A stretch of 64,000 bases of DNA, taken from contig CP099840.1 of assembly GCA_030062745.1 (NCBI GenBank), forward strand, positions 35,033,101 to 35,097,100, read 5' to 3'. The position numbers and the translations under genes were made by a program. The notes below the pieces were generated by a model. It had not been told where the DNA came from. It did no database searches and was given only the letters and a program-made list of their open reading frames with translations. Origin of the DNA: Capitulum mitella. Its lineage: Eukaryota; Arthropoda; Thecostraca; Pollicipedomorpha; Pollicipedidae. The first letter of the stretch is position 1; every line of letters starts with the position of its first letter. Below are positions 13,869-61,938 of the stretch, piece by piece.

Positions 13869-13965
13869 TGCGCCGCCCTCCGCCGCCGACGGCGCCGCGC
13901 GCTGCCGCTGCGCGGCGAGGAGGCGCAGCACGCCGCCGACTGATGCTGGTGCACCACCGGCCCTC

Positions 13966-14722
13966 TGGCGGCCCGTCATCAGACCATCACCGGTCCACCG
14001 GCGGCCCGTCATCGGACCATCACCGGTCCACCGGCGGCCCGTCATCGGACCATCACCGGTCCACCAGCGGCCCGTCATCAGACCAATCCTGATCCACTGA
14101 CGGCCTGCCATCAGACCATCACTGATCCACTGACGGCCCGTCATCAGACCATCACTGATCCACTGACGGCCCGTCATCAGACCAATCCTGATCCACTGAC
14201 GGCCCATCATCAGACCATCACTGGTCCACCGACGGCCCGTCATCAGACCAATCCTGATCCACTGACGGCCCGCCATCAGACCATCACCGGTCCACCGGCG
14301 GCCCGTCATCAGACCACCACCGGCCCTCTGGCGGCCCGTCATCGGACCGTCACCGGTCCACCGGCGGCTCGTCATCAGACCATCACTGGTCCACTGACGG
14401 CCCGCCATCAGACCATCACTGGTCCACCGACGGCCCGCCATCAGACCATCACTGGTCCACTGACGGCCCGCCATCAGACCAATCCTGATCCACTGACGGC
14501 CCGCCATCAGACCATCACTGATCCACTGACGGCCCGTCATCAGACCAATCCTGATCCACTGACGGCCCGTCATCAGACCATCACTGATCCATCGGCGGCC
14601 CGTCATCAGACCAATCCTGATCCACTGGCGGCCCATCATCAAGCCAATCCTGATCCACTGACGGCCCGCCATCAGACCATCACTGGTCCACTGACGGCCC
14701 GTCATCGGACCACCACGGCTTG
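13966..14722. repeat. 33-bp minisatellite, about 23 units
   Basis: The array has tandem units of 33 bp built on CACTGACGGCCCGTCATCAG, followed by either ACCATCACTG or ACCAATCCTG and then GATC/GGTC. Two unit types are interspersed. Because 33 is a multiple of three, a long open frame runs through the array on the minus strand; this is a by-product of the repeat. The array starts about 175 bp upstream of the signal-peptide start codon. Confidence 0.93.
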
Positions 14723-18055: not shown

Positions 18056-18515
18056 GCTGTTGACAGTAACGGCTGGTAACAGTGGTGATTGGCGCTGATG
18101 ACGTCGGTAGTCCGCATTGGTTAGAGCGGAGGCTGGTGGCGACAATGACCGGTGTCGGTGACGGTGGTGGTCAGGGACTGGTGACTTTGGTGTTGGTAAC
18201 TGTGGTAGTTGGTATCGGCGACAGAAGTGGCCGGCAATGAAGGCGGCAGCAGTGGTCCGTGCTGGCGACGGCAGCAGTTGGTGCCAATGACAGCAGTGGT
18301 CTGTGTCAGTGACAGCGGAGGTCCGTTAGTGACAGAGGCGGCCAGTTTTGGTGGCAGCAGTGGTCGGTGCTAGTGACAGCAGCGGTTGGTGCCAGTGAAG
18401 CAGTAGTCGGTGCTAGTGGCAGCAGTGGTCGGTGTCAGTGACAGCAGCGGTCTGTGTTAGTGACAGCTGTAGTCGGTGTCAGTGACAGCAGTGGTCAGTA
18501 CCGTGGGCAGCAGCA
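18056..18515. repeat. 22-bp minisatellite, about 20 units
   Basis: Units are close to AGTGACAGCAGTGGTCGGTG TC, with frequent substitutions. It is best preserved at 18370-18510. Confidence 0.85.
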
Positions 18516-18519
18516 ATCG

Positions 18520-20639
18520 GTGTCGGAGGCGGCGCCCAACGGCGTCGATCCCCAGCTGCCGTCGGCGCCGACCCGGACCGTCGGCGCCGACGGAGAGAGA
18601 GCGCGACGACAGGCGAACCTCACGTCCCAATAAACGGCCCATTCCCGTGAAATGCGATTGATCCGGCTATTTACACGGTCCGTAACCGGGACGGGGGGAC
18701 TGTTGGGGTCGTCTGATGTCGGCGGACACAGCACCGGATGTCGGCGGACAGGACGGGACGAGACAGGCTTGATAAACCCGCACGGATAAGGGATAGAGAA
18801 GGGTGTAATTGACCACGCCCCTAGATGTAGATAAGGAGAGCAGCGCAAGATAGAGAGAACTGTCTTGGTTTGCAACGGAAAGCAGCAGGACAGCAGATCC
18901 CATCACTCCTTAAAGTAGGGCAAGATCCAGGGAAACCGAAGTTTCGTGATTAAAAAAAGTTATTAAGGGTTCCTCTTGCTTGCGGAAAAGTGTTAAGTGG
19001 TACGAAAACAAATTGCGGGGGTGAAGTAAAGACACATAGTGCTAAGAAACAGGGAAACGTGTTTTATGATTGACTTCGTGGACTTCTGGGGCCTACATAC
19101 TGTCACTGTGAGTGAGAAACCATTCTAAAGAGTAAAGGACCCCTGAAGCCAAAAGCGGTCGACACGCACAGCCACAGAAGCGTGGCCTAAAGCCTGGTGG
19201 TTTGCGATGCACAAGAAAACTCATAGCGCAGGGGTCTCTGTGTGTAAAGGGCCTAGAAAGCGAGAGAGTGGAGGGAGTTAACGTCGGTGTTTGCTGTCGC
19301 ACCCTGAGCCCAAGAATGCAGGCCCCAATCCGTTAAGGCCTAAAGGCACAACTGTACATGTCACGTGACGTGCCAGTGCTCCGACCAAAGGACGTGAAGT
19401 CCTGCGGGGCCAGGAAATGTCGCTGTAACATCAACTGCCAGGGGCCTCGAAGCTTACAAATTCCAAAATCTGAAGACTCCTCGCCATGAGAGTTTTCCAG
19501 TCCGTGTAGGGACCTCGAATAATGGATGCTAGCAATGTTTCAGAGCCCAAAAGGAAAGAAGATTACCCATCAGCTCCTGTTGTCCAGCCAAGCCTGACCC
19601 ACCAACTCTTACTGCCCCGTCATATCCGACTCATTAACTCCGTCCGTCGGTTTTTGCCTATTCGACCAGATTTTGCACATAATTGCCTCTCCTGGGTCTC
19701 TCCTTGTCTCTCCTCGGCATGTCTCTCCTATATTCTATTCCCTTTCGCCACCGGTCCTTTCCAGTTATCTGGCTGCGTCCGACCGGTAAGCCCCCCTTTC
19801 CTGCTGGTGTTTCACGCGGCCCCGCCGTCCTTTTCCCTCAGTCCACCATCCGTCCAGAGGTGGCGCTGTAAATGAGCTGCAACATCTCACCTATTGGCAG
19901 TCGAGACAAATCGTCACAGCTGCTTCGCAAACCTATTACCAGTAAACCTGCCGCGTTCCCAGCCTACCTCCCTCCCTCTCTCACTCTCCCTTTCTCTTCC
20001 TGCTTCTTTCTTTTCTGTCGTCTCTCTCTTCTCTCACCCCCTCTCTATTTTTCCCTTCCTCCTCGCTCCCATTTCGTTCTCTCTTTCTCACTGTCTCTCC
20101 TGTGTCTGTCATGGGGATGACGTCAACAAGGTGCGTTCAAAAAGGATAATTTACGAATGTTATTCCACAACTGACCCAGTCACCGCAAAGATAAAAATTG
20201 TGAGGTCGTAGTGGGCCGGAATTTTTTACTTCGTCGCTGTCAACACGGCTTCTGAGACCGTGTGAGCATAATGCTGCACTCGTTCCCTCCCTGAGGTATT
20301 CAGTACATGATTGTCGAGAACTTTTATGAACCTGGCTTGCGTTTTAGTCAAACAAACAGCTCTCCAAATAGACAGATTGACTTACACCACGGGTGTAGGA
20401 GCCTATAGGTCACGCAAAGTGGTATCTCTACCAACCAAAGCGTCCTTTTATCCCAGTTTTATGGTGTTGCATGGAAAGCTTTACACTCAGAATGACTCCA
20501 ACCTTGCTTCTTTTAAACACGCGCCTCCGCACAAAAATGACACTTTCAACCTTTCAATCTTGGGAAGTTTCGACGCGTTCGACAATCTGGCTCCAGCGAC
20601 CAAACAATTGCATCTAAAGAGAAATCTATATGCCATTTG
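18520..20639. other. No gene seen
   Basis: Holds a pyrimidine-rich stretch (19960-20110, CTCTC/CCTCC) and text near 19440-19520 (AGGGGCCTCGAAGC, GGGACCTCGAATAATGGA) resembling the tandem repeat at 1.35-1.88 kb. Confidence 0.5.
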
Positions 20640-23600
20640 AGAGATGTGTGTCTGTCTGTCGTCAAATCTTTCCTCCGGTCCAGAGCCCAAACGGACTGAC
20701 GGATGGGTACGTGCCGCGAACCGTTCGAAAGATCCCGCGCACCGCCAGAGAATCCGCTCGTTTTCGTTCCACTGTGCCCCGTCGTTGGCGCGTGCGGCGC
20801 CCTTAAAGGGCTGATCTTTAGCCCATAGGGCTAACACGTACAACGGAGAAACGCAAACAGCGCCAAACATTGCTTCGGTTCCGACGAGTTTTCTCAGCAA
20901 CCACGGGTCAGATCGCCCTCAAAACGCATCTGCATGGAAAGGCAATTGAACGGGCAATCGCGTGGAACAAAACACGTTTCATTGCGCGCAACACAAGTCA
21001 CACGTAAACGAAGGCAATGTGAAAAAGCTATTGTCTGGGCGTTTTTAGAATTTGGTATGGTGCTGGCGATCCAGAGATCGCAGCGACTCCGAAAAAGCAT
21101 CACGGTGTAGTTTCGTGTACCGTCTTTCGTTCGTACCGGAAGCCCAAAGGCTTTGACCCATGGTGGGTGTGCCACGCCGCCTGAAAACAGACGATGCACT
21201 AATTGTCGAAACCCATATCGATTCCGCTTCAATATCGCGTAGAAGCTTTTGACTTTTTGCAACGAAAATCACATCAGCGTGTAACCCGTTCTTTTTTGCC
21301 CTGTATCAACCGAACAAAGTTGTCGTATTTTGTTGTAATATGGCTGTAATAGATCGCTTGGTAAAGTCCTGCATATCCTACCGGGGATTTATCCCGAAAA
21401 AGAATTGATGCAGGCTGCAGTCATAGGCTCAAGTTCCGGCCAGATAAAATGAATAGCGCACGCGCTCCTCAAACGCTGGGCTCTGCGTAGTAAAAAACTC
21501 GGCACGTTTCGTTGTCAATTAGTCTTGGTTCCAGAAACCTGTCCTGGCTATCCATGACTTGAATTGGATATTCTCTGTAAAAAAATGAACATCATATTAC
21601 TCAGAATATTACTGTGTGCGTTATGAATGACCAGGGACAGGGAGGAAGATGGCTATTTGACATGTTTTTTTTTTTTACATTCTGTGTCAGGCGTCGAGGC
21701 AGCCACCATGATTGGATGATCAAAGCGAAATGCAAAATGAGATCAAGTGCATTTAGAAACGGGGTCTGTCACGCACAGTAGCGTCCGGCAAGGAGCACGT
21801 TACCGTAATTTATGACATTGCACGTCCCAAAACTAACCAAGGATACCAAAGGTAAGATTGCTTCGAAAAGGATACTTTTGGAAACTGGGCAATTCATCGT
21901 TAAAATCTTGTTTAACGAAGTATGCGACGAGCCCTAGCCTATACACTGTTTCTGAAGCGTGTGTCTGTCTGTCTGTCGACAAATCTTTGCTCCGGTCTAG
22001 GGCCCAAACGGATAGGCGGATCGGCACATGCCTCGCACCGTTCGAAAGGTCTCGAGCGCCGCCAGAAAATCCGCTCATTCTCGTCCCGCTGCGACCCGTC
22101 GTTGGCGCGTGCCGCGCGATTCAAAGACTGACTTTTAGCCCGTAGGGATAACACGTAAAAAGGGGAAACGCAAAAGGCGTCAAACGTTGTTTCAGTCCTG
22201 CGACTTTTTTCGGCAACCACGGGTCGGATCGGCTCGAAACGCACCAACCTAGAATGGCAATTGAACGGGCAATCGCGTGGCCACAAAACACGTTTCAATG
22301 CGCGCCGCACGTGCCAGGCGCAGGCGAAGGTAATGTCAAAATGCCGTTCTGGGCGTGATTCAGAATTGGGAGTGGTGCTGGCGATCCAGAGATTGCAGCG
22401 ACTCAGAAAAGCATCACGGTGTAGCTCCGTGTACCGTCTTTCGTTCGTACCGGAAGACCATAGACCATAGGCCATAGACCATAGGCTTCGACCATAGGCC
22501 AAGACCATCGACCCACGGTTCGGGTGCCACGCCGCCCAGAAGCAGACGATGCATTCCCAGACATTCTCGAACCCCATATCGATTCCACTTCAATATCACC
22601 TACAAGCTTTTGACTTTTTGCAATGAAAATAACATCAGCGTGTAGCCGGTTTTTTGTGCCCCATATCAGTCCAAAAAATCAACGTATTTTGTTGTAGTAT
22701 GTCTGTAATACACCATTTGGTAACGTCCTGCATACCCTAACGCGGATTCATCACAAAAAAGAATTCATGCCGGCAGCAGCCACAGGCTCAATTCACAGCC
22801 AAATAAAATAAATAGCGCACGAGCTCCTCAAACCCTGCAATTTGCTTAGTTAAAAACTCGGCATGTTTCATTGTCAAAATAGTCTCGGTTTCAGAAGACT
22901 GTCTTGGCCTCCCAGACACAGTGACTTGAAATGGGTATCTTCTCAAAGAAAATTGGATAGCGCGTCGCACAGCGTCCTGTCTGCGTTTAAGAAGGATGTT
23001 CATAGGCAAGGTGGAAAATGACTACTCTCCATGTTTTTCATCATTTGTGTCGGACGTAAAGACTCTCACCAAAACCAGATCATGAAAGCGAAATGCAAAA
23101 TAAAATAAAGGGCATTTAGAAAAGGGTTTCGTCATGTACAAGAGCGTCCAGCAAGAAGCACGTTACCACCATTCATGATCATCCGCGCTCCAAAGCCGAA
23201 AACCAAGCAAAGATCCCAAAGGTCAGACTGCTTTGACACCTAAACTTTTGGAAACCAGACAGTTCAGCGTTCTTGAACCTTGCTTAACGAAGTAAGCGGC
23301 GAGCCCTAGTCTATATACTATTTGAGAAACGTGTGTCTGTTGTCAAACCTTTCTTCCAGGGCCCAAACAGATCGGCGAATAGGCACGAGCCGTGCACCGT
23401 TCGGAAGGTCTCGTGCGCCGCCAGGCAATCCGCTAATTTTCGTCCCCCTGCGACGCGTCGTTGGCGCGTGCCACGCGCGTAAAGGCTGATTTTAGGCCCA
23501 TAGGGATAGCACGTAAAAGGGGAAATGCAGCCAGCGTCAAACATCGTTTCGGTTCCGGCGAGTTTTCTCAGCAACCACGGGTCGGACCGGCTCCAAGCAC

Positions 23601-24655
23601 ATCTACTTGGAAAGACAATTGAACCGGCAATCGCTTGGCATACATCACGTTTCAGTGTGCACGACACGTGCCACACGCAAACGACGGCAATGTGGAAAAG
23701 CTGTTTCTGGGCGTTTTTCAGAATGGGGTGTGGTGCTGGCAATCCAGAGATCACAGCGACTCGGAAGAAGCATCACAGCGTAGCTCCGTGTACCGTCTTT
23801 CATTCGCACCGGAAGCCCAAAGACTTCGACCCGTGGTGCGGGTGCTACGCCGCCTGGAAGCAGACGATACACTCATTGTCGAAACCCATATCGATTCCAC
23901 TTCAATATCGCGCAAAGGTTTTTGACTTTCTGCAATGAAAATCACACCAACCTGTAGTCCGTTCTTTTGTGCTCCATATCAACCCAAAAAAATCACCTGA
24001 TTTCATAATAGTATGTCTTGAATACGTCATCTGGTAAAATCCTGCATGTCTTAATGACGATTCATCGGGAAAAAGAAATTGATGCCGGCTGCAGTCGTAG
24101 GCTCAAATCTCAGCCCACATAAAATGAACAGCGCACGCGCGGCTCAAAACCTCGGATCCGCTTTGCTAAAAACTCGGCACATACCGTTGTCAAAGTATCT
24201 CGGATTCAGACGGCTATCTTGGCTTCCGAGAGACAGTGACTCGAAATAGGTATCCTCTTAACAGAAACTGAACAGCACATCGCGTAACGTTCTACGTGAG
24301 TTGAGGAATGTTCAAGGGCAAAGAGCACAAAAACCTATTTCCCAAACTATTTTTGTGTAGGACGTAGACACCGCCACCAAAATCGTATCATGAAAGCAAA
24401 ATGCAAAATGAAATTAAGGGCATTTAGAACCGCAGTATGTCATGTACAGGAGCGCCCAGCAAGGAGCATGTTACAGTCATCGCTGACAATCCGCGACCCA
24501 AAACCCAAAAACCACTGCCAAAGATCACAAAGACAAAGACTAACAAGGAAAGCCAGACTGCTTCCAAACTGGTTCCATGGGAAACCGGACTTTTCATTGT
24601 TCATAGAACTTGCTTAACGAAGTAAGCGGCAAGCCCTAGTATATTCTGTTTTAGA
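20640..24655. repeat. Three-unit tandem repeat, about 1.3-1.37 kb per unit
   Basis: The same landmarks recur in the same order: GTGTCTGTCTGTCG near 20645, 21960 and (variant) 23331; CGTGTACCGTCTTTCGTTCG near 21115, 22428 and (CATTCG) 23787; GCTTTTGACTTTTTGCAA near 21245, 22605 and (variant) 23918; AGCACGTTACC near 21796, 23158 and (variant) 24464; and TGCTTAACGAAGTAAGCGG near 23281 and 24610. Spacings are about 1315 and 1370 bp. Fragmented frames appear on the minus strand in each copy, but none stays open across copies, so I see no supported gene. Confidence 0.85.
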
Positions 24656-26723: not shown

Positions 26724-27005
26724 AACATGCAATCACAACATCAATTTTTTGTCCTGCCTTAGTCCAGCTTCGTATTCCAAAATACGACCGTTTTTAAGTG
26801 TAAAGATGCGCCGTAATGTCACAGGGGTATCACACCCCAGGTAGTCGTTCAGTCTGCTGGAGGTTGCGGCTGTCCAGATGGCAGTGCTCGAGAGGAATCA
26901 GGAATTCTGGGACAATCAGAAATCGGGAACCTTTGACGAATGAACAGTGGTAGATGCGTGCATGTTCCTAATTTGAGTTGGGAATGTATTATGCAACACC
27001 GATAA

Positions 27006-29726
27006 CACTGGTCAACAACAAATTTTTTGTCTGAGTTTTTTCAGCTGATTTAGGACGAATCTGATGCGCTGAATCTAAAAATCAGATTGGTTTTGCTCAA
27101 TCAGGTCAAGTTTTTGAGCTATGGCCACATGTCGTTTTTTTACGTTTTTGTTCACGTGTACGCTTGTATGGAGCATTTTAGAAGAAGTTGGTGGGGGTAA
27201 AATGCCATGTCGAATATTTTTTTGATTGGAAATGATTATTTTAATGACAAGAAGTATTCAGGTCCGATAGTTCTGGGTGATTATGTCGAAAAGGGATCAG
27301 TTTGAAGTCATAAAACCTCTCGAAATCTTCCAAAAATTCGTGCGGCAAAGCATAAAGTCGGTGGATCAAAACTAAGTTAATGGGGCAGCCGCCCCACGAA
27401 GTGTATAGGAAATTCCACCCGCGCATGTACGGGTGTTTTCGCTTCATGTGTGTTGCGGAATATTTGCGTTGTCGTGCTGGTGGCGGCAAATACGGAACGC
27501 GGTGGGCTGCGGTGGTTGTGTACAGTGGAAGTGGCAACTAAACGTGAAGCCGCTGGTTGTAATTTTGTGATAATGTGATACAAAAAAGTTGTATTTCTTG
27601 AAATAACGAACTCTGGAGAATGTACAATACCTACATGTGCCAACTTATGACTAATTTGTCCATATTTTTGTTTTGCATGTGAATAAGATGGCTTCGCCCA
27701 GAAGATCGTGCAGAAATAAGCCCGACGTGTTCTGCTACATATGTGGAGAATACACCCTTGCTCCTAATAGGAAGCCAGTCACAAGTTTCATAATGCGTGC
27801 TTACCATGCTTATTTTGGTATTAAACTTGGTGACCAGGATAAAGCTTGGGCGCCACACATGGTGTGCAAGGCATGCACCGAGACTCTACGTGGGTGGACC
27901 AATGGCAAGAGGAGTCTGAACTTTGGAATTCCCATGGTTTGGAGGGAGCCGACAAACCATGTCACTGACTGCTACTTCTGCGCTGTTGATGTGACTGGGA
28001 TCAACAGAAAGAACCGGGGCAGCCTCAACTATCCTGATCTTCAATCAGCACGTCGTCCTGTAGCTCATTGTGATGAAATTCCAGTGCCTATCTTCGGAGA
28101 ACTTCCTGACATTAGTGACGAAGATGCCTCCAGTGTTGAAGGACATGAAGAAGAAGAAGAAGAAGAAGTGGTTCTTGAAGATGATGCTCCACATCCGTTT
28201 TCCCACAAGGAGTTGAATGATCTAGTTCGCGACCTCAGCTTGTCAAAGGACTCTGCCGAACTGTTGGCATCCAGATTGAAGGAAAAAACCTCCTCTCTGA
28301 CAGTGCTCGCATCAGCTTCTTCCGCAACAGACATCAAGAGTACCTCCGTTTTTTCTCTGAAGAGAAGGACTTGGTGTACTGTGCAGATGTTGCGCAGCTT
28401 CTGCTCAAGCTTGGAGTGCCACAGTACGAACCCAAAGATTGGAGACTGTTCATTGACAGCAGCAAGCGATCACTGAAATGTGTTCTGCTACACAACGGCA
28501 ACCAGTTTGCCTCTATACCCCTGGCTCACTCGACTACACTGAAGGAGAAGTATGAAGCGGTGAAGTATGTGCTGGAGAAAATTGGTTATGATCAGCATAA
28601 GTGGTTTATTTGTGTTGACCTGAAGATGGTGAACTTTTTGTTGGGACAACAGTCTGGCTTCACCAAGTACCCATGTTTTCTGTGCATGTGGGATAGTAGG
28701 GACCGTGCTCAGCATTACACGAAGAAGGACTGGCCTGTGCGGGAGGAATTGGTGCCTTGCAAAGAAAGGAACGTCATCAACGACCCTCTGGTGGACAGAG
28801 ACAGAATACTTTTCCCACCGCTGCACATCAAGCTCGGCTTAATCAAGCAGTTCACCAAGGCTCTGGACAAGGATGGTGACTGCTTCACTTACTTGTGCCA
28901 GGCTTTTCCAGGATTGACTATGGAAAAGTTGAAAGCTGGCATATTTGACGGTCCTCAGATCCGTCAGCTCATCAGAGATCCAGAGTTTGAAAACTCAATG
29001 AACGAAGTGGAACTCGAAGCGTGGGAGGCATTTGTTCTGGTAGTGAAGAACTTTCTTGGCAACAACAAGGCCAGAAACTACGCAGAACTTGTCAACAACA
29101 TGCTGACTGCTTTCGGAAACCTGGGCTGCAACATGAGCGTCAAGATGCACTACCTATTTTCACATATGGACCGGTTTCCTGAGAACCTGGGTTCGATGAG
29201 TGACGAGCAGGGAGAGAGATTCCATCAGGACCTGAAAGAAATGGAGACCAGGTATCAGGGTCGCTGGGACGCAGTCATGATGGCTGACTACTGTTGGACT
29301 CTGAAGAGAGACCTCCCTGCCGCTGAGCATTCCAGGAGTTCAAAGAAACGGAAGTTCAAGCCCTGAAGTTTGAAAATCTGGTGAAGCAACATGCAATTTA
29401 AGTGTACTTACCTTTATCAATGTCCACCATTCAGTTTACAGTAATCGCTGTTTCTATCAGGTAATCAATATATGTTGTTGGAAAAACATATTTTCTCATA
29501 AAAACATATTTGGGATGATATGTGTTGACAAAAATCAGCTGATAATGCCACAAAAATGTAATCGATTTTGTCACAAGATCTGATTTTTTTCAAATCAACT
29601 TAGCACAAAAACCTGACCTGATGGAGAGAAACGGATGCCATTTCCTGATTCAGCAGCGCAAAAATACCCTAAATCAGTTGTAGAAATCTAGACAACATTC
29701 AAAAAGTAAAAAATTGTTGCCCAGTG
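27006..29726 (+). mobile_element. Nearly intact DNA transposon with CACTGG/CCAGTG ends
   Basis: The 5' end CACTGGTCAACAACAAATTT and the 3' end, read on the other strand as CACTGGGCAACAATTTTTT, are inverted repeats. The similarity continues in blocks for about 120 bp: CTGATTTAGG at 27045 and inverted near 29665, and TCAGGTCAAGTTTTTGAGCT at 27102 against inverted TCAGGTCAGGTTTTTGTGCT near 29605. The trinucleotide TAA directly flanks both ends (27003-27005 and 29727-29729), as a 3-bp target duplication would. CACTG termini with 3-bp duplications are known in the CACTA/Mirage/Chapaev group, but the family assignment is inference. The interior holds one transposase-like gene split by a frameshift. 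Confidence 0.85.
27688..29366 (+). pseudogene. Transposase-like gene of the 27-kb element, broken by a single-base shift
   Basis: The start chosen is ATG 27688 (context AATAAGATGG). The N-terminal part has paired cysteines that look zinc-binding: CYICGEYTLAPNRKP, CKAC and CYFC. An acidic Glu run (EEEEEEE) and ELNDLVRDLSLSKDSAELL follow. The frame shifts at an A6 run (28283-28288); the continuation runs in the third frame to the stop after SKKRKFKP at 29366. The C-terminal part has conserved-looking acidic positions in an RNase H-like order: RLFIDSSKRSLKCVLLHNGN, FICVDLKMVNFLLGQQSG, and SDEQGERFHQDLKEME. It also has a CFLCMWDSRDRAQHY zinc-like motif. Proteins of this type occur in many copies in arthropod and cnidarian genomes, usually labelled uncharacterised. 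The DDE reading is inference. Only one disabling base is seen. Confidence 0.8.
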
Positions 29727-29984
29727 TAATGCTTTAATCGCGCGACGCCCTCGGTAAGACGATATGCACAGGAGGAATGGACTTGAAGTCCTCCGATAAC
29801 ACCAGTACTCTTCTGGGCCCCACCTATGCACACGACCGTCTGTATGGGATTTTAAGAGACGGAATAAGGATACTACCGGTAATAACGTGTAAAATGGACG
29901 CTATCATACATCGGATTTGTGTATCACGAACGTCACCGGAACGGGCTAGTGTGACATGCATGTCATTGTGTCCGGCCCGGTAAT

Positions 29985-30320
29985 ATTGTGCCAGGCCCGA
30001 TTAACAGCCGTCACTGCGTCAAGCCATAGCAACAGTCGTCACTGTGTCAGGCGCGAGTAACAGCTGCCACTGTGCCGGACCAGACCAACAGCTGTCACTG
30101 TGCCAGGCCCGATTAACAGTCGTCACTGCGTCAAGCCAGAGTAACAGCCGTCACTGCGTCAGGCCCGAGTAACAGCCATCACTTTGTCGGGTATGAGTAA
30201 CAGCCGTCACCGTGCCAGGCCCGAGTAACAGTCGTCACCGTGCCAGGTCCGAGCATTAGCCGTCACTGTGTCGGGCCCGAGTAACAGCCGTCACTGTGCC
30301 GGGCCTGAGCCACACTCGAC
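29985..30320. repeat. 28-bp minisatellite, about 12 units
   Basis: Units follow AACAGCCGTCACTGTGCCAG GCCCGAGT with point differences. The array starts about 260 bp right of the transposon and runs into a GC-rich island. Confidence 0.9.
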
Positions 30321-37972: not shown

Positions 37973-40444
37973 GTGGGCGCCCGTAGCGGAGGGCGGCCGG
38001 GTCGGAGGTCTGGCCTGTCTGACCACGCGTCTGGCCGGGCTGGCTTTCTGTTCCTGTCACGTAGTGAGAGCTGATGACCCTAAGCTGTGTTCCAGGACGG
38101 TTTCACAAGTATAGCTTTAAATACGCCGGACACCGTCATTGCCGCACACTTCGAGCAGCCGCCCAGCCAACTGAATACCAATTAAATATCTTCCCTAACG
38201 GTACAAGGCGGAGTTCTAAGGCCCACCACTGGGCTCTTGCACAGTTTGATGAATCTCCTAGGATATTGCCGCATTATTTCAAATGATTTTAAACATCAAT
38301 GACGTCAAAAACAACGTGTAAGCACCTCCGTCAAGGTCATCTCAGTGTGACGCACGAGCGTCACAGCCTCCTTTGTGATAGTGAAGCCATGGTTATGATA
38401 GCGAGAATCAGTCGGCCTGCGATCTGAATCAGGGACATTGCCGTAGTCTGGTTTACAAAATAGATTTTTGGCACCCAAGAAGTAGACATCGGCTTATATA
38501 CGTCCTCTAAAACACGCAGAAGCTGTACGAAAAGCGGAATACACGAAGCATGTTTGCATATGTAGTGGAAGCTGCGTAGTCGATTACCGGCTTTTCAAAC
38601 GTCGTAAACTTAATACAGTGCTCGTTTCAGCAAAAATTTTGAGGGGAGATCCGCGGAAAATTCACATGTGCACGTTAGCCCTTCAGACATCAGCCAATTT
38701 GTTCATATACCCGAACCTGACATGAAGAGGGATTCTCCATAGATTCTTGTCTTTATCGAAGGGGAAATGCAGTTGAAAATGGGGATGTGATATTTCTTGA
38801 TCTTAACCGCGAACCAAGGCCAGGATGGACCATTGACCTCTGTACCTGGCCACTTCCCAAAATTTTCTGGCCGAGCTGCGGAGTTGAGGCTTATCAGTAG
38901 ATTCTGACGTCATCTGCTGTGACGCAGAACTGCATCATTAGTTCTTTGACGAAGCAGATGTCTTAATTTCGATAGACATCAGTGTGACAGCCTGCATGGA
39001 GCAAAGCCTGAATGCTGCAGCCCGGCTTCCTCATAGACCTGATATCAGAAACCTTCCCATAACTTTGGTAGATCCCATAATTTCGGAACTCATGTCAGCT
39101 TTACATTTCCGCAAAACATGCTTCGAGGAGACTGTCCATTGTCATCGCTATGAAGATCTCAGGTCATGCCTCCTCAGTTGTGTGTTTGTGGGTGAACTGT
39201 CTCAGCGTTTGGCTATTGGGACAGGGAGCCATCAGTTTGCATTCAATGGACATATTTCACGACAAAAATTTGTTTCTTTGGCTCGAAGGCAAGTTGCGTG
39301 CTCCCGTCACCCAGTCATTGCTCGCTGGGCGAGGGTGGTGATTCCCTGGTAGTTTCCGTACAAATCGAAGGGTCCAGTGATATTTCTATGGTTACGTGTG
39401 ACCACGGACTTTGCCCCTACTTAGATTATTGAAGCTAAGAATAATCCTTGCAGGACAGGTAAATCCAAGAGTCAGGAGAGGAGACAGCCAACGTAACAGC
39501 TGGATGTCGTTATTTCAGAGCATAAGCTGGCCCACTGGGCCGTCACGGCCAGGTTGAACATTATCTGGGCTTGTCTTCACATTTCATTTTTTTGGCCCGG
39601 TCCTGCATCGTTTTTCTGCGCTAGGCCGAAGTCCCAACCGGAACTAAAAAAAATGAATTTCATCCTTTGACGGGGCCTTCTTTTCACCAACTTCCTCATA
39701 AACAAGAGTAAAACCGATGGGGATGGAGACCCTCTCCTTACCACTAGATCGACTCCTACTGCACAATGCATGGACATGCAGTGACATCTGCCGCTCATCC
39801 AATCCCGCTGGAGCCTTTTCCAACAAAAAGCATAAATCGGAACTGACTTGAATGCATTATCCAAAGCTCTCCACGTTAATCTACGACTATAAGCATTGGT
39901 GGAAGGGCCCGGCTTTGTTGCCTTAGAATTAATGAGCCCAGCTCTACCATTTTTAGGTCGGGAATCAATTTTTCAGCCGTTGTTGCAGTTGGAAACAGGC
40001 TTAAAATTTGAGGGGAGGAAATACCACCTTTCCCCACACCTAAGACTCTTATAAAGGCTCACCCTTATCCCGAGTTTCGACAAAATTTTAGATCTGTGGT
40101 TTTCCCTGCACAACAAAGCAAATTACTATTTTTTTCAGAAACCATGCAGTCATAAAGTGATAATTGGCCGAAAAAAATGAAAAAGCACAGCTTAGCGATT
40201 TAAGACCAAGGACAAAGTCACTATTTAATCCCTTAGCTTCCAAATTTATTCGGTACCTCCTTGCAGTACGGACCAGATTTACAGGAGTGTGCAAAGACAA
40301 GTAGAGGGAACCAGGGTTGCCCATTCTTCTTGCCCTTTACTAGTGAAACCGGCCAACGTACTGAGCATCGAGCGAAAGGTGCGGTGGATGGTTGCTCAAC
40401 CGCCCATGCCTTTCCGAAATCTGAGTCCATGCCCTTCTGGATTA
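37973..40444. other. Left part of intron 2, nothing recognised
   Basis: Ordinary sequence between exon 2 and the palindrome, with short frames only. Confidence 0.6.
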
Positions 40445-42372
40445 TTCCACGTCAAACCACCCAAGAACTGGCCCAACCCCCTGGATTTTGATTAAGTTTA
40501 GTACTCTAATAGTGTCTACCGAAAAATGGCAAACCATTAATTTTTAGTCCTAGCCGACCTCTGAGGTCAAAGTTACAGGTCATGAAAGGTAACCAATTTT
40601 TTATAGACATTGCATGCTTCAAATGCCCATAACTCCGTGACAGACTGTCACAGAAAGGTGCGATGATCGCCATTCGAAAGATAAATGTTCCAGCTTTCAT
40701 AAAAAAAAACAATTTTTTCGATGATCTCGGGATGACATTTGACCCGATAAAGTCACACGGGCCATTTGCAGTTTTAACCATGTTTGCCCGCCGTGATATT
40801 CGCGAAAATGTACGATGTGTCCTTAAGTATCTGCAAAAGTGTGGCGGAAAACATTTCTGGGCAAATTAAAACTTTTGCACGCATCTTGATTTAAGTGCTG
40901 TTAGTGGCGCTTGAGGAATATGCCCTGAGGCTATCTGACGAATACTGATTGATGTCGTGCCTTCCGTTTGTCCGATTGTTCTACGATTTGGTGAGCGCAA
41001 TGCCCTGCTTGCCTGCTACACATCAGCTTAGTTTTCAATTGCTTGACCAGAAAGGTCAAATTTCACACCACCACTGATCGACCCTCACCTCTGACTTATT
41101 CCTTCTTCCCCTTTTTCACGAATGTGAGTTTTTCGGGTGTTTTTAGGCCTTAAAACCAACTGAGATAATCCTAGCCACGTATCGGGGCCTCTGTAAGGTA
41201 TAAACGAGGCCAGTGACATCGGTTGACCTTTTGTTGCCCATATTGACCTCGAATCATTTATAGATTTCTTGAGGTCTTATTTCGAAGTCCACATTTATTT
41301 TGCACGCAATGGTTCATTTATGTTCATTCTATGTCCTGGATGAAAGTCAGTTTTTCTAATTTTTGGAGGTACGTATCTCAATTATCACGTCTACCTGCTT
41401 CTATACGAAGTCGTCGTTTCATTTGTAACTATTCCAACATTCAGGGAAGGACTTCATGACGAAAAAAAACGTCCTACAGCTAACATGGAATTTTTCATAC
41501 GTGCAAACTGCGATACGTCAACAGTATATGTGTCATCAGTGCCTTAAAAAGTATGTATGGATCCGAGGCCAACAAGTTATTAAGGTCCTTCGAGGTCACT
41601 GACCTCGGGCGACCTTCAAAGCTTCTATGCATGACTAAGATTGTCCCAGTTGGCTCAAAGGATAAAGAACACCTAATGAACTCACTTCCGTGGAAATGTA
41701 TAGAGCGGATATGTCAGATCCGGATGGCAGGGGCCGATTGGTAGTGGGGTATCATGACTTTCGACCATTCCGGTCAAGCAATTTAAAACTAACCTGATGT
41801 GTAGCAGGCACGCAGGATATTGTGCACACCAAACTGTAGAACAATTCGACACACGAAAAGTACGAAATCAATCAAGATTCGTCAGATACTTCCAGGGCAT
41901 ACTTCTCAAGCGCCACTTTGCAACACTTAATTAGGATGTGTGGAAAGCTTCGATTTTCCCAGATTTTTTCTTGCCCCGCTTGCTGTAGATAACTGATACC
42001 ATATTGTGCTACATTTTCGCGAAGATCACGGTGGGCAAACATGGTTAAAACCGAAAATGTCCTATGTGACCCGGCGAGGTCAAAGGTCGTCCCGAGGTTT
42101 CCGAAAACATCGCCTTTTATGAAAGCTGGAAGATTGATCTTTTGAATGGCGCCAATCGCGCGTTTCTATGAACGTTTGCCACCGAGTTATGGGCAATGAA
42201 TCATGGATGTCTGAAAAAGACGGTGACCTTTCATGACCTGTAACTATGACTTCAGAGGTCACCCAGAGCTAAAAATTTGTGGCTGACCATTTTTCGATTG
42301 GTATTATGAGAATATCAAATGTCATCAAAATCGAAGGGGGTCGGGTAGATTCTTATGCGATCTAACGTGGAA
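40445..42372. repeat. 1.9-kb imperfect palindrome (foldback element) inside intron 2
   Basis: The left half (40445 to about 41400) matches the reverse complement of the right half (about 41400-42372) in order along its length. Matched blocks include ATTCCACGT at 40443 with ACGTGGAAC at 42365; TTACAGGTCATGAAAGG at 40573 with its complement near 42227-42243; CCAGCTTTCATAAAA at 40691 with its complement near 42116-42130; TTAACCATGTTTGCCC at 40774; and CCTGCTACACATCAG at 41014 with its complement near 41794. The halves are diverged by many substitutions and small gaps but are collinear almost to the centre, so there is little unique spacer. No open frame is conserved, so this looks like an old foldback element or a head-to-head pair of one repeat. 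Confidence 0.85.
41593..41605. promoter_or_regulatory. Perfect IR-1 nuclear-receptor motif (ecdysone-receptor type)
   Basis: AGGTCACTGACCT is two AGGTCA half-sites inverted with one spacer base, set in a longer perfect palindrome (CGAGGTCACTGACCTCG, 41591-41607). It fits the published EcR/USP consensus RGKTCANTGAMCY. It lies in the right half of the intronic palindrome. Function is unknown. Confidence 0.4.
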
Positions 42373-42528
42373 CGACAGCTCTGCGGAGGTGCACTGGATC
42401 GCAGCTCCGACAGTACGCTGGATGGGTCGACCCTGCCTTGGCCGGAGCTCAGGTGGTCGGAGCTCCCACAGCCCGCCAGCTGGTCCGACGCCTGACGCCA
42501 GCGCGGGCGCGCCGTGCCGCTCCGGCAG

Positions 42529-42776
42529 GCGAGCTGGGGGACAACTGCACGGTGGAGATCTCCGACGTCGGCGACAACACGTGCCGGCCCACCGAACAGC
42601 GAGTGCGTGCAGGGCCACTGCATGTGCCATTTCCCGTACTACCCGACCGACGAGAACACGGCCTGCACGGTCGTCCAGACCCGCTTCTACACCACCACCA
42701 TCGTCATCTGCATCTGCATGCTGTTCGCCGCCGTCGCCATAGGCCTCATCATGCAGGTCCGCAGCAACATGCGCAG
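42529..42776 (+). CDS. Exon 3: second EB-like module and membrane helix, with a one-base frameshift
   Basis: The acceptor is CCGCTCCGGCAG ending at 42528 (phase 1) and the donor is CGCAG|GTGAGC at 42777 (phase 2). The first part reads GELGDNCTVEISDVGDNTC. The second part, in the next frame, reads NSECVQGHCMCHFPYYPTD and ENTAC, then a hydrophobic helix TTTIVICICMLFAAVAIGLI, then MQVRSNMR. The two frames abut at 42582-42604, and one surplus base near 42594 explains the shift. Together they form one complete EB-like module followed by a single transmembrane segment. Both splice phases agree with the neighbouring exons only if the shift is corrected, which suggests an assembly or sequencing error, or a recent disabling change. 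Confidence 0.72.
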
Positions 42777-43469
42777 GTGAGCGGGCGCGCTGATGTTGGT
42801 GGACTCGGGCTGCGACAGTCGGCGAGTTCGGACGACCCGAACGGTGGGGAAGACGGGGAGCGGATGGGGCTTCATGCGCGCGACACGCGTAATGCGTGTC
42901 GCGTGTTAGCTGCACTACGTATCGACGTCTCATATGCCGAACGGCTGGTGAAAACATAGCTCCAACTTAGTCATGACCCCGTGTTTTCCTGCCCTAAATT
43001 GCGTCAATGACCTTTTGCGTTTGGTTCGTCATACCAGAAGATTAACGTCCAAGGGAAGATAATCAAGATCGCTCTGCTATGAAGGTTTTGTTGTATGGTT
43101 AACTCCTGCGAACGGCGTTCTTCACTGTTGAGGACCTGGAACCTGACTCGCCTTTAACGAAAATCCGTCACCTGCAGGAACGCAAGAGCATTCAAAAAAG
43201 TGTGCGTGTTTGTGGAGGGGGGGGGGGCAAAAGACGTTTCTTCTGTAGGGCTAATGTTAAATTTCCAAAGGGTCAGCCGGCCTTAGCCTCCGGCCTCCTC
43301 CCGTGTTCTTACGCCCGTGCGGTCACTTGACTGTACTTTAGCCCGGCCGTCTCCAGCGCTTATGATGAATACCCCAGCTCTTTAACGTGCGATGGGTGGC
43401 CTGGCTGTTAACTGGCTCTTGTGACCTTGATGCTGTTTCGACAATAAGTAACAAGGCTAAACCGCTCAT

Positions 43470-43790
43470 CGGTGGTTTGATTCCCCTGTACCGCCCGTCA
43501 GTGATCTGACTCCCCTGTACTGCCCATCAATGAACAGACTCTCCAGAACCACCCAGCAGTGATCAGACTCCCCTCCACCGCCCATCAGTGATCAGACTCC
43601 CCTGTACCGGCCATCAATGAAGACTCCCCCGTATCGTCCATCGTGAACAGACTCTCCAGTACTGCCCATCAGTGAACGGGCTCTCCAGTATCAACCATCA
43701 GTGAACAAAATGTCCAGTGCCGCCCATCAGTGGCCACACTCCCCTGTACCGCCCATCAGTGAACAGTACCTTCCATCAGCGACCCGATTT
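43470..43790. repeat. 29-bp minisatellite before exon 4
   Basis: About 11 tandem units of 29 bp follow the pattern GATCAGACTCCCCTGTACCG CCCATCAGT (shown in two parts). They end about 45 bp upstream of the exon-4 acceptor in the last recognised intron. Single-base differences and a shortened unit near 43620 show an old array. Confidence 0.9.
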
Positions 43791-43836
43791 CCCCGCGCCC
43801 ACGGCGCGAGTCCGACTGACGGCCTCTGGCGGGCAG

Positions 43837-44056
43837 GCGGCTTCAGAGGCGGCACTACCGGCACCGGCGGCGGCTGGCCGGACGGCTGCCGCGGCCGCCG
43901 GCCCGCCGCCGCCCGGACGCCGCGCGCCGCTACTCGGAGGAGGACGAGCCGGACGAGCCGCCGCCGCCCTACGTGCCCATCTTCACCACGCGCTCCTCGG
44001 GCAACTGGGGCAAGCTGCCCAGCTACCAGGAGGCGGTGGCGAACTCTGCGGTTGCG
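43837..44056 (+). CDS. Exon 4: cytoplasmic tail with PPPY and LPSY motifs
   Basis: The acceptor CTGGCGGGCAG ends at 43836 and restores phase 2 (AG|G, Arg). The donor GCG|GTGAGA at 44057 leaves in phase 0. The segment begins with a very basic juxtamembrane stretch (RRLQRRHYRHRRRLAGRL), as expected on the cytoplasmic side. An acidic, proline-rich stretch follows, RYSEEDEPDEPPPPYVPIF, then NWGKLPSYQEAVANSA. PPPY is a canonical group I WW-domain ligand, and LPSY is the variant known from Drosophila Commissureless and other Nedd4 substrates. The gene probably continues, since the frame is still open at the donor; without splicing it stops near 44195. No later exon was recognised. A 29-bp minisatellite lies just before the acceptor. 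Confidence 0.72.
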
Positions 44057-44059
44057 GTG

Positions 44060-45536
44060 AGACGGTCGGCTTTTCGTGGCGTTTCAATCAGCAGGGCGCA
44101 TGTGCGATTTCAGGAGCGCGATGGTGCGATTTCGATAACAAGCCCCTCGGCTCACTCTGCTTGGAGGACTCCACAAGAAGTCACGCGGAAAGTGTAAGAG
44201 AAGGAAAGTTCACTACTAACAGCAAGTAAAGAAGCCCCTGTCATACAACAGTCATTCAATGGCATTCACGGTCTACGTCCGTGCGACTCCGCGTCCCACC
44301 TCTGTCCGCCTCGTCCCTATTCGGGGCCCCGTTCGGCTCGTCAACGAAGGGAGGGACTCGGCTTCCAAGCCTCTCCGTACGCCTCTTCAGCTGAGCGAAT
44401 TTCGTCGTGGGCATAATGAAAGTGCTCTCGATTGGAGTAAAATGAACCTCGTGATGCACGATATGGCACTGACATATGGTCCGAAATGAAACGAACAGAC
44501 TCGGAGATGTGGCCCGAATGCCCGAATGTCTGGTTAGAATGCACCATGTTTAATGCTGGAATGCCTGGTTAGAATGCACCAGACCGTGGCTCGTGGAAAA
44601 GGACAGGTTTGGATCCTGGGCGGCAACCTGCTTGTCTCGCCTTTCAATGCAGCTAGCAGTCAGCTGAGGGCGTGTTCGGAAGACTGCATACCACAACCAT
44701 CCTCCGTTTTCTGAAATCTAGGTTCTTCGCACCAAAAATAATGGTTGTCTGATTCCTTAGTATATATGTTGGACATGCACGTAGCCAGAATTCTCCTCAG
44801 GGGGGAAATGTCAAATTTTGGTATGTGTCACCGGCATATGACGAAATTTATAGGAAAAAGCAGAAATTTTGCGTAACTGACATCATATTTAACGAACAGC
44901 AAGACAAACAGTTTTTGGTTTTGCAACATATATATGATCACTGTTTTGTTTTCCTGCGAAATCGCTGTATATCTAGTGCAGACCGCCTGGCTCAGGGGAA
45001 GGGTCATCGCCCCCATGCCTCGCTTCCTTGGCTACGTCCCTGTTATCGGATCAGAGACCGAAATCGGCCATTGGTCGTTTCAAACAATCATACCAAACAC
45101 CGCAATTAGAAGAAAGGTCGTTCTTTGGTCAAAAGAAAACGACCTCGACGCTTTCCAGCAATCTCTGCACTCCCAAACACGAACGAAGACATCACTTCGT
45201 ATCGTGGTTCCCATAAAAACGACCACAACGCATGGAGGCAAACCGTTACTTGCAGGCAAGGGGTTGATTTATATTTTTTTGAGAGGGCCCTGGCCCACCC
45301 AATGTTGATTTGGGTGCTCGTAATGTTGCTTTGGGCCCATCCAATATTTTCTGCCGGTTTTAAAGGAAAATGAATAATAATAACGAAAAGAACGACCGCA
45401 ATAGATAAGAGACCAGCAGAAAGGTAACGAACAGTCTAAAGCGATGTATCTTTCTATCTTTTCTCTCTCACTCACTCTCTCTCTCTCTCTCTCACTCTCT
45501 CTCCCTTTCTTTTCTTTCTCTCTCTCTCTCTCTCTC

Positions 45537-60070: not shown

Positions 60071-60122
60071 CTGAAACCAGACCGGCCAGCTCCATCGGGC
60101 CCGGCGGCGCGCTCACCAGCCG

Positions 60123-60975
60123 GACGTGAAGGAAGGTCACGTCCCGCCAGGTGGGCGTGAAGGAAGGTCACGTCCCGCCGGGTGGACGTGAAGGAAGGTC
60201 ACGCCCGCCAGGTGGACGTGAAGGAAGGTCACGTCCCGCCACGTGGACGTGAAGGAAGGTCATGACCCGCCAGGTGGACGTGCAAGGTCACGTCCCGCCA
60301 GGTGGATGTCAAGGAAGGTCACGACCGCCAGGTGGACGCGAAGGAAGGTCACGTCCCGCCAGGTGGATGTGAAGGAAGGTCACGACCGCCAGGTGGACGC
60401 GAAGGAAGGTCACGTCCCGCCAGGTGGATGTGAAGGAAGGTCACGTCCCGCCAGGTGGACGTGAAGGAAGGTCACGTCCCGCCAGGTGGACGTGAAGGAA
60501 GGTCATGACCCGCCAGGTGGACGTGCAAGGTCACGTCCCGCCAGGTGGATGTCAAGGAAGGTCACGACCGCCAGGTGGACGCGAAGGAAGGTCACGACCG
60601 CCAGGTGGACGCGAAGGAAGGTCGCGTCCCGCCAGGTGGATGTGAAGGAAGGTCACGTCCCGCCAGGTGGACGTGAAGGAAGGTCACGTCCCGCCAGGTG
60701 GACGTGAAGGAAGGTCACGTCCCGCCAGGTGGACGGGAAGAAAGGTCACGCCCCGCCAGGTGGACGTGAAGGAAGGTCACGTCCCGCCAGGTGGACGTGA
60801 AGGAAAGTCACGTCCCGCCAGGTGGATGTGAAGGAAGGTCACGTCCCGCCAGGTGGACGTGAAGGAAGGTCACGTCCCGCCACGTGGACGTGAAGGAAGG
60901 CCACGCCCCGCCACGTGGACGTGAGGGAAGGTCACGCCCCGCCACGTGGACGTGAAGGAAGATCACGTCCCGCCA
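60123..60975. repeat. 31-bp minisatellite with a 243-bp higher-order duplication
   Basis: About 27 tandem units are built on GTGGACGTGAAGGAAGGTCA followed by CGTCCCGCCAG. The block 60243-60485 recurs at 60486-60728 with the same variant units in the same order (TCATGACC, then a shortened GTGCAAGG unit, then GATGTCAAGG), so a 243-bp multi-unit block was itself duplicated. The array fills part of the intron between sushi exons D and E and ends about 55 bp from the exon E acceptor. Confidence 0.93.
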
Positions 60976-61938
60976 AGTGGCAGGGTTGGAGCGACGTTCA
61001 GTGAATCGGGAGATATGGAACGAAATGTGAGTATGAGCGTTACGCCACAGGAAACCGGGTCGCTCCTCTTTCAAATATTTATAGACCAGTAAAATATAGG
61101 TCATAAATTGGATAGGTAACACGGTTTAGAGTGGTCAAAAGAAAATGCGCAAGCAATCCTGGTTGTCTCTATCCGCAAAGGAATATCCAGAAGAATGATA
61201 GAAAAAATTGCTTTCAACAAATCGCGCTGCAGAGATGACGGAAACCAACCCAATGGAGAAACATTGAACTCAACAAATACAAAACGACAGACGTACCATT
61301 TCAGCCCGTTGGATGGCTAATGCACTGAATGGAGTTTGCAGACCTGATGCCCGGATGGACAAGATCAACCATCAATGCCAGGTGCGGTCTCTCAGTCTCT
61401 CGAGAACGATTTGGGCACGGCCCGCTCATAATGGCAGGAATCCTGGACACTGCGGCCGCCTAAGCAGGAGAGGACCCCACCATCAACGGACCACATCTCT
61501 GATAAAGCCTCCACGGTGGTGAACAGACCACGTCTGTGAGAGGAGGGGGAAGATTGTCCCTTGAAGAAGAAGAATGAAAGGAGGGGGCTGCCGCCGTGAG
61601 AAGATTGTCCCTTGAGAGGGCGGCATCTCTCACTGAACTCATTGAACAGGCGACATCAGAGATGTCGCCTATTCCCCGTGATTGGACTGGACTGCAGTTT
61701 CTGAAGTAGAGTGCTGCTGTGAGACAGATGTCTCTGTGGGAATGTTTACTATGTGAGGGGACGATCTCTGTCAGTGGTCTTGCTTACGAAGCCGGGCCGA
61801 ATCTGAACGGGTCACCTCTCGTGAGAACACGAGCTCTCCGAGAGGACTCGCGTGCCGGCTGGCCTGGCCAGCACCGGCGACCGCGCGACCTCAGGTCAGG
61901 GTCCCGGGGGCAGTCGCTCGTCACCCGCCGGCCCTCAC

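Follow-up and report, generated by a model that had tools for sequence, protein, structure and literature searches.

A 1.95-kb palindrome in the Capitulum mitella genome is probably a decayed copy of a dispersed foldback DNA transposon

The palindrome and its surroundings

The window analysed here is a 64-kb stretch of the Capitulum mitella genome that contains part of a putative membrane-protein gene, a separate DNA transposon, tandem repeats and, at 40445–42372, a collinear palindrome that is the top-scoring inverted repeat among those listed for the window. The putative gene is seen in the list of open reading frames (ORFs), in which we recognised by eye a Cys-rich membrane-protein exon at 42366–42780 with a transmembrane stretch and a NSECVQGHCMCHFPYYPTDENTACT-like motif, spread over two frames by an apparent one-base frame break. 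An ORF with PPPPY and LPSY motifs at 43820–44197 may be the exon of this gene that encodes the cytoplasmic tail. A Pfam search with three putative exons of this gene, including the second part of 42366–42780 and the ORF at 43820–44197, returned nothing significant. As the exons were recognised by eye in ORF lists, the location of the palindrome within an intron is putative.

The separate DNA transposon lies at 27005–29728 and was also identified by eye, with ends reading CACTGG(T/G)CAACAA, which we take to be CACTA-like, and TAA at either side. Over about 300 bp its inverted-repeat similarity exceeds that of shuffles, and its overlapping ORFs at 27655–28476 and 28221–29366, which presumably encode a transposase-like protein, have no significant Pfam match. 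Kinship between the palindrome and this transposon was considered and rejected, as eight arm-to-flank scores fell within the shuffle range. The window furthermore contains minisatellite arrays at 13965–14716 (unit of about 33 bp), 18247–18524 (22/44 bp), 29987–30309 (28 bp), 43482–43766 (29 bp) and 60122–60980 (about 28 copies of a unit of about 31 bp, at 90%), and a unit on the 1.3-kb scale is duplicated in tandem at 20625–24532 with 75–82% identity.

Using standard scoring, 40445–41230 aligns to the reverse complement of 41582–42372 with 72.9% identity over 805 columns (E 2e-118), or 78.1% over 767 columns when gaps are left out. The arms are 786 and 791 bp long under this scoring and lie about 350 bp apart. 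The collinear inverted repeat that the original prediction had placed at exactly 40445–42372 is thus borne out. That prediction also described arms of about 960 bp with nearly no spacer; the collinearity stands, but the clear arms are only about 790 bp long. With match and mismatch scores of +1/−1 the alignment does cross the centre (69.6% over 1985 columns), yet the innermost ~350 bp contribute little: their local score was reached by 25 of 2000 dinucleotide shuffles and their global score by 45 of 2000. The collinear similarity of this inner part is weakly above chance, and “near-spacerless” is a generous term for the copy in the window.

Comparison with the other copies described below moves the ends of the element outward by 5–7 bp, to 40438 on the left and to 42377 to 42379 on the right. 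The candidate foldback element as a whole covers 40438–42379, or 40438–42377 when a 2-base gap is placed in the right terminus. Its left arm (40438–41230, + strand) starts with TGGATTATTCCACGT, where the family has TGGGTCATTCCACGT, and is alignable to the right-arm reverse complement from 40445 onward; the central part (41231–41581) consists of degenerate inner arms plus loop, and the right arm (41582–42379, − strand) finishes at the opposite terminus. Directly outside, TC at 40436–40437 and TC at 42380–42381 may represent the left and right sides of a 2-bp target duplication in the ungapped reading of the right terminus; in the gapped reading there is no match.

Copies and ancestral form of the family

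Does this sequence occur elsewhere? Using the left arm as query, we searched the genome to which the window belongs (477 Mb, 16 contigs) and obtained at least 41 matches (40 scored out of 1131 first-look candidates), nearly all with 75–80% identity, the exceptions being the query itself and one short piece. A self-inverted match longer than 1900 bp is present in 16 of the 30 loci that were fetched, two of which (L018 and L023) correspond to opposite arms of a single copy. Palindromes of about 1.95 kb with the same sequence are therefore found at dispersed places, other contigs included.

For the comparison of complete copies, we drew a set of 14 from the 30 loci, leaving out L023 as the same copy as L018, L005, L025 and L028 as broken or cut by the end of the locus, and all loci with a single or interrupted arm. 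The ends of these 14 full copies, some of them decayed, concur on (T)GGGTCATTCCACGTCAAATCGCACAAGAA. A 26-base pattern of the terminus, allowing at most three mismatches, is found at 481 sites in the genome, which count ends rather than copies and miss decayed ends, and its reversed control is found at none. From 20 additional stretches, 13 were used in the counts of target duplications and arm transitions; L062, L063, L066, L069, L070, L079 and L080 were dropped for having a different interior or a second arm that is partial or missing.

The majority sequence of the 14 oriented copies is 1951 bp long, with an arm identity of 95.3% over 865 columns. In blocks of 80 columns the identity is 94–100% over the first 720 columns and fades to 41% at the centre, with a clear loop of about 225 bp, so that two long terminal inverted repeats make up most of the majority element. 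It contains no stop-to-stop ORF above 90 amino acids, and Pfam searches with two arm ORFs of the palindrome yielded nothing significant.

One copy, L061, was considered as a carrier of a transposase and rejected, being instead a more completely palindromic copy. It measures 2256 bp, and its 532-bp interior is also palindromic, with halves that align over 247 of 266 bp. Matches to this interior occupy at least 87 rows in the genome, many of them on both strands (40 of 68 candidates scored). Because the interior of L061 is palindromic and is matched elsewhere on both strands, the family may originally have been an inverted dimer with almost no loop. An autonomous, transposase-bearing partner was found neither in the ORFs of L061 and L063 nor behind 11 ends that have a different or truncated interior, a search that covered a small part of the family.

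Folding of the palindrome as RNA

A transcript through the palindrome would, by prediction, fold into a long imperfect hairpin. RNA of 40445–42372 folds at −903.5 kcal/mol for the + strand and −921.1 kcal/mol for the − strand, compared with a mean of −508.0 kcal/mol (sd 6.7) for 20 dinucleotide shuffles, and 646 of the 730 predicted pairs lie on the palindrome diagonal. The proposal of a candidate long hairpin RNA source in the original prediction holds for the capacity to fold, but the sequence tests for use of such a hairpin, given below, are negative.

Is the hairpin used by the cell? The locus could be a functional hpRNA locus, in which the intron hairpin is diced to 21–22-nt siRNAs that silence a target, or a selected ADAR substrate. 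The strong folding is in line with such a role, as is the transposon sequence described for some fly hpRNA arms in the available text of one report (PMC10317233). However, the longest perfect helix in the window copy is 20 bp (27 when G-U pairs are counted), no perfect 21-bp helix is present in this copy, and outside the element no match to the palindrome in the window is better than E 0.15, leaving no target there. G-U-compatible transitions between the arms are not in excess either, neither in the window copy (49 for the + strand versus 51 for the − strand) nor summed over 27 full copies (1370 versus 1377). A single copy of the 27, L071, which is not the window copy, is biased at 43:77 (p <0.005, uncorrected for 27 tests); we treat this as an effect of multiple testing, yet it counts against a perfectly even picture. 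Across the 14 copies, arm identity is 75.1% within a copy and 74.6% between copies (364 pairs). The two arms of a copy thus resemble each other no more than they resemble the arms of other copies, and hence nothing keeps partners alike. Use of the hairpin as hpRNA or by ADAR is possible but unsupported, and as far as can be judged from the sequence nothing suggests selection on the hairpin or its use or maintenance by the cell. We consider a functional or selected hairpin very improbable.

Flanks, mobility and relation to known repeats

How did the copies reach their present positions? Outside the termini TGGGTCA...TGACCCA, the flanking 2 bp are identical in 11 of 23 copies, whereas cross-copy pairs agree in 9.5%; exact matches of 3–10 bp are absent, with the exception of one of the 23 copies at 7 bp. 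Nine of the 23 copies had served to select the terminus for this count, in a scan of 11 offsets and 7 lengths; the 14 copies that played no part in that choice include six exact 2-bp matches. The count omits L072, the end of which was not located, and L015, L017 and L018, which have flanks in common with L006; L074 and L076, both lacking an exact 2-bp match, were kept though their flanks resemble those of the L006 group. Immediately outside 40445 and 42372 a target duplication is not above chance. A candidate 4-bp duplication, ACGT, is trivially satisfied by this self-complementary sequence and was abandoned when comparison with other copies revealed where the element really ends.

The flanks, fetched in unequal lengths of about 100 to about 1500 bp, differ from those of the other copies in 10 of the 14, bar simple repeats and a 234-bp stretch present in both L003 and L010. 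L006, L015, L017 and L018 have both flanks in common. In this subgroup the palindrome was thus carried and multiplied within a larger composite repeat rather than by its own transposition. The shared flank, taken from L006, has 72 first-look candidates in the genome (40 scored), and 15 of 16 sampled flank copies (L081–L096) lead directly into the palindrome terminus, L094 leading into other sequence. No empty site was found among these 16 sampled from the 40 listed.

These junctions would also be expected if the palindrome were, throughout the family, no independent element but an internal segment of a larger repeat. However, flank candidates are far fewer than arm candidates (72 versus 1131), 10 of the 14 full copies do not have the L006 flank yet start with the same terminus, and the exact 2-bp duplications in 11 of the 23 copies are situated right at this terminus, which together make such an origin highly unlikely. 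A local inverted duplication of unique DNA, in line with the search of the 64-kb window that found no second copy of the palindrome, is refuted by complete palindromes of the same sequence on other contigs and can be dismissed almost with certainty.

We conclude that the palindrome is very probably a decayed copy of an old non-autonomous foldback DNA transposon. The complete palindromes dispersed over the genome argue for a foldback element rather than a local duplication, the distinction for which the original prediction had proposed a genome search with the arms, and they contradict the notion that the two halves are separate insertions. Its description of an old foldback element with intact collinearity agrees with scattered copies that share their ends, lie for the most part in unrelated flanking sequence and have 2-bp target duplications. 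Against the foldback transposon speak the 12 of 23 copies in which the exact 2-bp duplication is absent, the failure to find a transposase-bearing partner or an empty site among the copies read, and the L006 subgroup with its shared flanks; the duplication of the window copy, moreover, depends on how its right end is read. The element would have been about 1.95 kb long, consisting almost entirely of two long terminal inverted repeats with a short loop between them, and without coding capacity. A transposase from another element would have recognised the TGGGTCATTCC ends, and copies would have moved to scattered sites, leaving a 2-bp target duplication. The window copy would have come to lie about 150 bp upstream of the putative coding exon and would since have decayed, each arm independently, to 73–78% similarity. 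A more far-reaching and rather doubtful possibility is that the family represents a separate lineage of palindromic DNA transposons, with an almost loopless inverted-dimer ancestor, TGGGTCATTCC ends, a 2-bp duplication that agrees with neither of the foldback families compared below, and a transposase still to be found.

The suggested “hairpin RNA source” thereby becomes a tangible object, probably a single decayed member of a palindromic transposon family dispersed over the genome, and as far as the window is concerned the palindrome is an ordinary repeat. Should many introns contain copies of this kind, these would be well suited to asking whether long transposon-derived hairpins are edited, diced or ignored in invertebrate cells. 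The 2-bp duplication combined with the palindromic structure may provide a handle for finding the mobilising transposase. If the family is indeed a separate lineage, its many copies, some of them in introns, would together make up an extensive reservoir of long double-stranded RNA.

A literature search with the terminus strings gave no transposon paper by title among the matches listed, and a scan of the window against Rfam gave no match at gathering scores. No distant DNA similarity was found in a plasmid collection, and two exact 19-base arm motifs were absent from viral contigs.

Comparison with known systems is by structure. Drosophila hpRNA loci, which according to the available text (PMC10317233) are recognised by a primary transcript and by siRNAs that depend on Dcr-2, similarly have an inverted repeat from which long double-stranded RNA can form, whereas the Capitulum mitella arms are old and drifting apart. 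Another known system is Tetris, a foldback transposon of Drosophila virilis that its authors place in the Mutator superfamily: in the part of the description available (PMC4079207), it likewise has long terminal inverted repeats, a non-coding middle domain and no autonomous partner found, but its target duplications are 8–10 bp, in contrast to 2 bp here. Galileo, of the P superfamily, also has foldback-like long terminal inverted repeats; in its available account (PMC4168063), most copies have target duplications of 7 bp and the transposase is known, compared with 2 bp and no transposase found here. Both comparisons are by description and not by sequence. Duplications of the 7–10 bp typical of the Mutator and P types are practically absent from the present family, with one of 23 copies exact at 7 bp and none of 23 at 8, 9 or 10 bp. 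Because the 2-bp duplication differs from both, we apply neither family name, and we regard the family as a known, ordinary kind of repeat with unusual details, namely its 2-bp duplication and its nearly loopless variant.
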